From the NCBI GenBank assembly GCA_017302045.1, contig JAFLED010000003.1:1-34449 (forward strand): a stretch of 34,449 bases of DNA, given 5' to 3'. Both the position numbers and the translations under genes were made by a program. The stretch is from Spirochaetota bacterium. GTDB taxonomy: Bacteria > Spirochaetota > Leptospiria > Turneriellales > Turneriellaceae. The notes under the pieces were generated by a model. The model was not told where the DNA came from and did no database searches. It saw only the letters and a list, made by a program, of their open reading frames with translations. Below, piece after piece: positions 7,641 through 30,021 of this stretch. The number at the start of each line of letters is the position of its first letter. The first letter of the stretch is position 1.

Positions 7641-7673
7641 GTGGGAAAAAATCGGTGTTTTCTGGTATTTCTT
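7641..7673 (+). promoter_or_regulatory. Bipartite upstream element shared with the 29406-29975 paralogue
   Basis: GTGGGAAAAAA, 12 nt, then GGTATTTCTT, ending 4 nt before the ATG of the gene at 7678. The same two blocks with the same 12-nt spacing precede the paralogous gene on the other strand (29989-30021). With its short distance to the start codon it may be an operator for autoregulation, or a promoter giving a nearly leaderless mRNA. Neither half matches a standard -35 hexamer. Confidence 0.6.
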
Positions 7674-7677
7674 TAGT

Positions 7678-8238
7678 ATGAAGCATCGCGATATTTCACC
7701 GGCCAGGCCGACTTCGGTCACCATGCGCTCCGCCATTCGTGCGACGCTGAAAGATGCCCAAACCCGACTCTCTGCCGGGGGTATGAATTTCTCGGAGCAA
7801 AGATTAATGCGGGAGTGCCTGCGCCTGGCCCTGCGCTTTTGGCGTGGGCGGCGTGGCATGGCTTCCTGCAGTCGGCGTTATAACGCGCGCAGTGGGCCAT
7901 ATGAAATTGTCCCGTTTTACAGCACAGAGGCTCTGCGTCAGGTTTCGATGCTGCGTTGCCATCATTCCGGGATTTCGCTCTCCCGCCTTATGGATTTCGC
8001 CGTGCGCCACTATCTGGCGCGCGTTGTCGAGAGCTGGTTGAGTGTTCCATTCATCGGCCGCGATATGACGGAGGTAGAATTTTGGAAAAGTAAATATGCA
8101 AAAAGGCGCCATCCCCATGACTTCATTATTACCTATGCGTCCAAAATAATGAAAAACGAAGAATTCTGTCTCGCATATGCGGAAAAATACCAAATCAAAC
8201 CCTGGCCACCCGATTTGACGCCGCAATACGGCAGGTAA
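7678..8238 (+). CDS. Uncharacterised RHH-like paralogue, copy A
   Basis: 186 residues, no named function recognised. It is clearly homologous to the protein at 29406-29975: residues 1-118 align without gaps, with about 42 identities, including WRGR (55-58), RRYN (66-69), Y-x-I-x-P-x-Y (75-81) and HSGxSxSR (96-103). Two successive beta-alpha-alpha stretches (about 12-55 and 74-118) look like tandem ribbon-helix-helix units, so DNA binding is my inference. The C-terminal part is basic and aromatic ([10 protein letters not shown]) and more divergent. Both paralogues begin MK and reach the TSV strand at residue 12, which supports this ATG. Monocistronic; divergent from nadA. Size and the Leptospirales-like setting recall the DUF1564 paralogue family, but I cannot confirm membership. 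Confidence 0.75.
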
Positions 8239-29405: not shown

Positions 29406-29975
29406 CTACGCGGCTTGGTGCAATAATTGCCAAATTTCCATCACGGATAGGTCTGCTTTGGAAATTATTTCCGCTTTTTGACAATATTCTAGTATTCGAC
29501 CGTTATTGTTTTCCGTATGGCAGGTATAGTTAATGAAAAAGTCAGCGTATTGGCGTTTGCGCCGGGCGAGACGCTGGTTCCAATACCTGGAATTCCTCAA
29601 ATCCTGCGCGCAAAGGAGTGTTTCCAGAAGCCGTGGCAGATAAACACGGATAGCCAAATCGAGCATACGGGATATGGATTCACCCGAGTGCAACGCCCGC
29701 TGCCAGAGGCTTGCATACAGTACCTGGTTTATGTACAGGGGATGAATGGCATACGCCTGACCTTCCCGATTATACCGCCGCAGGCCATTCGTCTTGAGAC
29801 CCCGGCCGCGCCAGTTTTTCAGGTATTCCTTGAAAAGCCGGCGATATATCTCATGATCGGAGAACCGGATACCGTTCCGGGACAGCATTTTTTTTGCAGC
29901 CAGCAGGCGGCGGTAAGCGGAGTCAGGCAGAGAAACGGATGTTTTCCTGCAGATGAGGGGGTGAATATTTTTCAT
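29406..29975 (-). CDS. Uncharacterised RHH-like paralogue, copy B
   Basis: 189 residues, homologous over residues 1-118 without gaps to the protein at 7678-8238. Unit 1 (TSVSLPDSAYRRLLAAKKML then FSDHEIYRRLFKEYL) and unit 2 (YAIHPLYINQVLYASLWQRAL then SISRMLDLAIRVYLPRLLE) each look like a strand followed by two helices, as in ribbon-helix-helix DNA-binding proteins. After a short gap the C-termini can be aligned again (RYWNQRLARRK, DFFINY). No function is recognised; a small DNA-binding regulator is inferred. ATG 29975 is supported by the equal MK-to-TSV distance in both copies. The shared upstream element lies 14-46 nt ahead of the start. The HPt gene follows on the same strand. Confidence 0.75.
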   Translation of the reverse strand: MKNIHPLICRKTSVSLPDSAYRRLLAAKKMLSRNGIRFSDHEIYRRLFKEYLKNWRGRGLKTNGLRRYNREGQAYAIHPLYINQVLYASLWQRALHSGESISRMLDLAIRVYLPRLLETLLCAQDLRNSRYWNQRLARRKRQYADFFINYTCHTENNNGRILEYCQKAEIISKADLSVMEIWQLLHQAA

Positions 29976-29988
29976 AGAAGCTCTACAT

Positions 29989-30021
29989 AAGAAATACCCA
30001 AAGTGGTCTGTTTTTTCTCAC
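29989..30021 (-). promoter_or_regulatory. Bipartite upstream element shared with the 7678-8238 paralogue
   Basis: Read on the minus strand: GTGAGAAAAAA, 12 nt, GGTATTTCTT, ending 13 nt before the ATG at 29975. Both blocks and the 12-nt spacing match the element at 7641-7673; the 12 spacer bases mostly differ. The match is therefore block-wise, as for a protein-binding site or promoter, not a recent duplication. Confidence 0.6.

Follow-up and report, generated by a model that had tools for sequence, protein, structure and literature searches.

A stretch of 34,449 nucleotides of spirochaete DNA, referred to as a whole as the window, carries two paralogous genes far apart and on opposite strands, each preceded by what looks like the same bipartite sequence. 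This raises the question of whether that sequence is a site through which the encoded protein controls its own gene or a dedicated promoter and, if the latter, what else it serves. The window comes from a metagenome-assembled genome of the genus Turneriella (3.78 Mb, 84% complete), and upstream sites were scored with a sequence profile, R1, made from 50 element sites.

The bipartite element in the window

The features of the two loci are as follows.

7641-7673, + strand: bipartite element of paralogue 1, GTGGGAAAAAA-N12-GGTATTTCTT (profile R1, E 3.3e-8)
7642-7650, + strand: -35-like block of that element, TGGGAAAAA
7664-7670, + strand: -10-like block of that element, GGTATTT
7678, + strand: putative transcription start of paralogue 1, the A of the start codon, placed from the conserved TA
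7678-8238, + strand: paralogue 1, P0001, 186 aa, subfamily A of the predicted tandem ribbon-helix-helix family
29989-30021, - strand: bipartite element of paralogue 2, GTGAGAAAAAA-N12-GGTATTTCTT (profile R1, E 7.3e-8)
30020-30012, - strand: -35-like block of that element, TGAGAAAAA
29998-29992, - strand: -10-like block of that element, GGTATTT
29976-29984, - strand: putative short leader of paralogue 2, AGAGCTTCT, beginning at the conserved TA(G)
29406-29975, - strand: paralogue 2, P0002, 189 aa, subfamily B, predicted tandem ribbon-helix-helix protein

The two proteins are 32% identical (BLASTP 1e-26). An initial sequence-only reading had proposed that one element with equal spacing stands before both genes and is unlikely to have arisen by chance, and both proposals held: 20 of 21 block positions are identical, and a search allowing up to 3 mismatches matched twice in the window but not once in 100 dinucleotide shuffles. 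Between the paralogues the spacers differ, as that reading had also described, and so do the flanks, with blocks and their spacing unchanged. The ATG of paralogue 1 (at 7678) lies 4 nt past the end of its element, that of paralogue 2 (at 29975, - strand) 13 nt past.

Distribution across the genome and the genus

At no more than 2 mismatches the element was found at 15 sites in the source genome and a reversed control pattern at 0. With profile R1 the number rose to 23 sites (E<=0.004), 16 of them upstream of paralogues and 7 upstream of other genes, namely two ssb genes, recA, comM (yifB) and genes for an outer-membrane-like protein, a secreted-looking protein of 423 aa (L013) and a small membrane protein (L032). 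A genome scan had been proposed with the initial reading, and it placed the element directly upstream of 16 of the 17 full-length family members found (5 of subfamily A, 7 of B and 5 of C) and not mainly inside genes; it also placed it before non-family genes, which the window alone could not show.

The association of the element with these genes, and its specificity, were also seen beyond the source genome. The genus was sampled with six genomes, among them T. parva (G004) with a closed chromosome of 4,384,015 bp. On this chromosome profile R1 gave 22 matches at E<=5e-6, the next match coming only at E 0.2, and all 22 could be assigned: to two ssb genes, recA, comM, the outer-membrane protein gene, a gene of family E, an IS91-type transposase gene and 15 paralogues. 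These classes of target recur across other genomes of the genus. Exact matches to the genus consensus among 84,980 prokaryote species numbered 59, of which 57 were in Turneriella-group spirochaete MAGs, and there were 0 in the viral contigs searched.

Two of the target families gave no match to Pfam. The outer-membrane-like family (L105, L120, L014, L151 and L170; about 300 aa) has one member under the putative promoter in each of five genomes and a conserved C-terminal tail, KWGLxPVEALRFxxxxxxCxLSxxAxxxLxxxxWxC. Family E (L101, L126, L158 and L176; 116-127 aa) has one such member in each of four genomes.

Geometry of the element and the putative start point

A logo of the sites shows an upstream A/T run, TGAGAAAAA, a 13-nt spacer ending T-rich, GGTATTT and, at a fixed distance, a near-invariant TA followed by purines (G, A, G/A, G). 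The blocks occupy positions 0-8 and 22-28 and the conserved TA(G) positions 35-37; the TA at +35/+36 is conserved in 85 related sites and in the set from the source genome. This conserved geometry is that of a sigma70-family (ECF-like) promoter, with blocks about 22 nt apart from start to start and a start point 6-8 nt past the -10. The distance from element to ATG, on the other hand, varies with the gene, being 4 nt in subfamily A, 13 nt in B, 15 nt in C and at least 40 nt in ssb and recA (overall range 4 to about 74 nt). As the TAG(AGG) stays fixed while the ATG moves, it looks like a transcription start region and not a ribosome site. No conserved block was seen in the logo upstream of the element, and with an ATG only 4 nt downstream this suggests that the element itself must be the core promoter.

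In subfamily A the TA forms the first part of TATG, so these mRNAs should be leaderless; within the window the mRNA of paralogue 1 would thus be leaderless and that of paralogue 2 nearly so. mRNAs of this kind are common in Leptospira interrogans (PMC5243855). Separately, the leaders of four non-family genes (ssb genes L005 and L039, the outer-membrane protein gene L014 and recA, L036) open with a AGGGGGATATCCC-like short hairpin directly after the putative start, and such hairpins are possibly a second layer of control.

The paralogues resemble TraY in predicted fold

Searching the window proteins against Pfam and NCBIfam gave nothing useful; by profile-profile comparison, subfamilies A/B are homologous to a further subfamily, D (E 2e-10). 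An AlphaFold2 model of P0002 (mean pLDDT 78.8) has two beta-alpha-alpha units (E9-17, H18-33, H40-53 and E75-83, H84-97, H101-123) followed by a small C-terminal domain. A Foldseek search with this model gave no match at E<=0.001, and the best PDB matches came from the relaxosome of the F plasmid (probability 1.00, E 0.015), in chains as long as would be expected of TraY, with VirC2 as a further, weak match. The paralogues are predicted from this model to be DNA-binding tandem ribbon-helix-helix proteins that are TraY-like, TraY of F itself folding, within one polypeptide, like a ribbon-helix-helix dimer (PMC12117103). They share with TraY and VirC2 the two beta-alpha-alpha units within one chain, but differ from them in having no sequence similarity, in not adjoining relaxase genes, in numbering 12-20 or more paralogues per genome and, for P0002, in the extra C-terminal domain.

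A comparable family is DUF1564 (PF07600), with up to 49 matches listed per genome in several genomes of the same class, for which no paper was found among the open-access papers searched. It too is an expanded paralogous family, whose genes carry an analogous element and share the regulon with recA, ssb, comM and comF, and a model of it (pLDDT 63.7) has the same doubled beta-alpha-alpha layout and the same best matches as P0002. The Turneriella-genus genomes gave no match to PF07600 at E<=0.001, the nearest Turneriella relative scoring 17.4 bits against a cut-off of 25. Profiles of subfamily D and DUF1564 were collinear over 92 columns (E 0.0039) at a probability of just 8.5%. Membership of DUF1564 was not assigned to the window proteins, which have no Pfam match. 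A profile of family B had no match in a genome contig collection, from which near relatives may be absent, and neither the family nor DUF1564 proteins had a match in plasmid and phage collections.

The same genes stand under a different element in another family

In genus g12 of family f5 (genomes G035 and G025), 14 of the 16 DUF1564 genes examined have TTTTT-CGCAC-N16/17-ACCTAnTAnTAGTATG upstream. The short form of this element, CGCAC-N16/17-ACCTA, is unrelated in sequence to the Turneriella element, yet its blocks are the same distance apart and the ATG lies at the putative start. In both genomes recA is preceded by CCGCAC-N16-ACCCA, a match of 10.6-10.9 bits that is under the reporting limit genome-wide but in the right position in both, and one ssb per genome carries the element, again weak genome-wide (E ~0.2) and rightly positioned in both. 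The element precedes comF in both genomes (E 5e-5 and 0.0027) and comM in G025 (21.9 bits), while comM in G035 has it with CGCAT. In G035 it is also carried by a gene divergent from comM, for a small membrane protein that resembles the Turneriella L032 product (BLASTP 8e-6), and in G025 an IS91-type transposase gene is preceded by the g12 element and not by the Turneriella type. Downstream of a g12-type element there is also a VapB-antitoxin-like gene in each genome (L413 in G025, L442 in G035).

The comM genes of genera g3, g10 and g13 had no recognisable element upstream. The DUF1564 copies of G018 were too alike for an element to be delimited, and a TTTTTACCTTATA stretch is repeated there about 50 nt upstream.

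Judging from these upstream regions, gene content is conserved between the families and promoter sequence is replaced, which would be expected if the factor that reads the promoter had changed its specificity. The geometry, the genome scans and this conservation of the regulon across families together support the earlier suggestions of a dedicated promoter, of nearly leaderless mRNAs and of a previously undescribed regulatory system.

Search for the sigma factor

T. parva has 18 Sigma70_r2 genes and none of the 18 has a regulon site upstream. The only ECF group common to the carriers of the regulon, and so the candidate by phylogenetic profile, was rejected as the likely reader: G008 has it as well but lacks the motif, and its gene lies next to one for a periplasmic stress protein. 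In Turneriella and relatives a conserved ECF gene lies directly behind a CpxP/Spy-like periplasmic protein gene (L362, L376, L374, L379 and L347), and its product is probably an envelope-stress sigma factor.

A probable competence regulon and its alternatives

The explanation that we consider probable is that the element acts as a core promoter for a specialised form of RNA polymerase and co-expresses a regulon for incoming or single-stranded DNA, most likely that of natural competence. Here TGAGAAAAA, the 13-nt spacer and GGTATTT would form the core promoter, with transcription starting at the TA(G) 35-36 nt past its first base, and the reader would most likely be RNA polymerase with an alternative sigma factor. 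The promoter would co-express recA, the two ssb genes, comM, the outer-membrane protein, the IS91-type transposase and the tandem ribbon-helix-helix family. The recombination proteins would prepare imported single strands for integration, and the paralogous DNA-binding proteins would probably be expressed only in the competence state, some of them from leaderless mRNAs; we infer the promoter role, the factor that reads it, this state and the role of the paralogues.

The genes ssb, recA, comM and comF are the usual DNA-processing members of competence regulons, comM being found in those of Gram-negatives. At the level of the element, in Turneriella and g12, a set of this type (ssb, recA and comM or comF) stands under a common upstream sequence, comF joining it in the g12 branch. 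None of the 22 T. parva sites lies before dprA, comEC or pilus genes, so the DNA-entry machinery would be outside the set. The closest parallel is the late competence regulon of streptococci (ComX/SigX), which likewise consists of dispersed single genes under a short dedicated promoter; the ComX box is unlike the Turneriella promoter in sequence. The Turneriella set differs further in its lack of dprA, comEC and pilus genes among the T. parva sites, in having no sigma factor assigned and in consisting mostly of tandem ribbon-helix-helix paralogues, plus an IS91-type transposase. The open-access papers searched yielded no documentation of competence in Turneriella and no competence or recombination regulon in a spirochaete.

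Some bacteria possess LexA-independent damage regulons, and the presence of the element before recA and ssb, both classic repair genes, would also fit an SOS-like response to DNA damage in which these genes are induced through a non-LexA factor. We regard this as unlikely, though it is the alternative that survives best: the 22 assigned T. parva sites include none upstream of lexA, recN, dinB or uvr genes, comM and comF are transformation genes and not SOS genes, and the element is not a LexA palindrome. The Leptospira SOS regulon (LexA1/LexA2) resembles the Turneriella set in including recA, but in L. interrogans the LexA regulon comprises recA, recN, lexA1, lexA2 and dinP under palindromic boxes, TTTGN5CAAA, and is without ssb, which showed no response to UV (PMC3789691). 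An SOS-like role is thus less likely than competence.

About equally unlikely is that the element is an operator at which one or more of the tandem ribbon-helix-helix proteins repress or activate all genes of the regulon, including their own. The site does stand upstream of nearly all family members, whose fold is predicted to bind DNA as their best structural match, TraY, does, and the genus consensus contains an AGAAAA/TTTTCT inverted repeat. In the source genome, however, the inverted arm of this repeat is weak, and the g12 element has no comparable dyad; moreover, an ATG 4 nt downstream leaves no space there for a core promoter distinct from the element, and the upstream side shows no conserved one. 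Single-purpose autoregulation would also leave recA, ssb, comM and IS91 unexplained. Self-repression by the family protein, which the sequence-only reading had offered, therefore does not stand as the main explanation, because the element precedes these other genes (recA, both ssb, comM and the transposase) as well, because it reaches to a conserved start point and because, in the other family, an unrelated sequence with the same geometry precedes the same genes. Given its predicted DNA-binding fold of two ribbon-helix-helix units, the family protein may still exert feedback as an extra layer on top of the putative promoter.

Possible mobility of family members

In the MAG KLAP116 one family member is present as 13 dispersed copies, about 89% identical and with unrelated flanks.

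KLAP116 copy loci: L133, L138, L141, L142, L150, L165, L168, L172, L174, L177, L179, L181, L186

The repeated unit is about 690 bp long with sharp ends, starting about 115 nt upstream of the ATG at an imperfect palindrome, TTGTAATAGTTATTACAA, and continuing through promoter and ORF to terminate at the stop codon; it has the look of a mobile element made of one gene, with no transposase evident. Interpretation as an integron cassette was dropped, as the ends are not common to other paralogues, and termination at the stop codon leaves no room for an attC-like site.

The Turneriella-type promoter is also found on an IS91-type transposase gene in T. parva, in Turneriella sp. Bin_83R and in G018, a genome of another family, and is retained in all of these copies at 71-79% identity.

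IS91-type loci with the Turneriella-type promoter: L102 (G004), L127 and L128 (G006), L114 (G018)
IS91-type locus with the g12-type promoter: L437 (G025)

As G018 is otherwise without the Turneriella-type element, this suggests horizontal transfer of the element. A more speculative idea, to which we give rather little credence, is that the tandem ribbon-helix-helix genes are themselves semi-selfish single-gene elements which, like the IS91-type transposons, are tied to the host's competence promoter and spread through DNA uptake and recombination, with incoming or single-stranded DNA as the substrate of their protein, in a role much like that of TraY in conjugation. If true, this would explain both why near-identical dispersed copies multiplied in particular lineages (13 in KLAP116, many in G018) and why every copy keeps a promoter whose sequence drifts between families. 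That the shared upstream sequence is only left over from duplication or belongs to a mobile unit, and has no regulatory role of its own, is highly improbable in spite of the 13 copies of the KLAP116 unit, for blocks and distances are kept between paralogues while spacer and flanks differ, unrelated single-copy recA, ssb, comM and outer-membrane protein genes carry the element in several genomes, and in g12 another element stands before the same genes.

Implications for DUF1564 and for spirochaete competence

DUF1564 reaches dozens of copies per genome in relatives of Leptospira, and its link through a putative clade-specific promoter to recA, ssb, comM and comF gives the family a cellular context and predicts when it would be expressed. 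The comparison of Turneriella with g12 offers a clear case in which the gene content of a regulon appears to have outlived the replacement of its promoter sequence. With a competence regulon as the probable explanation, natural transformation in Turneriella and in saprophytic Leptospira becomes directly testable.
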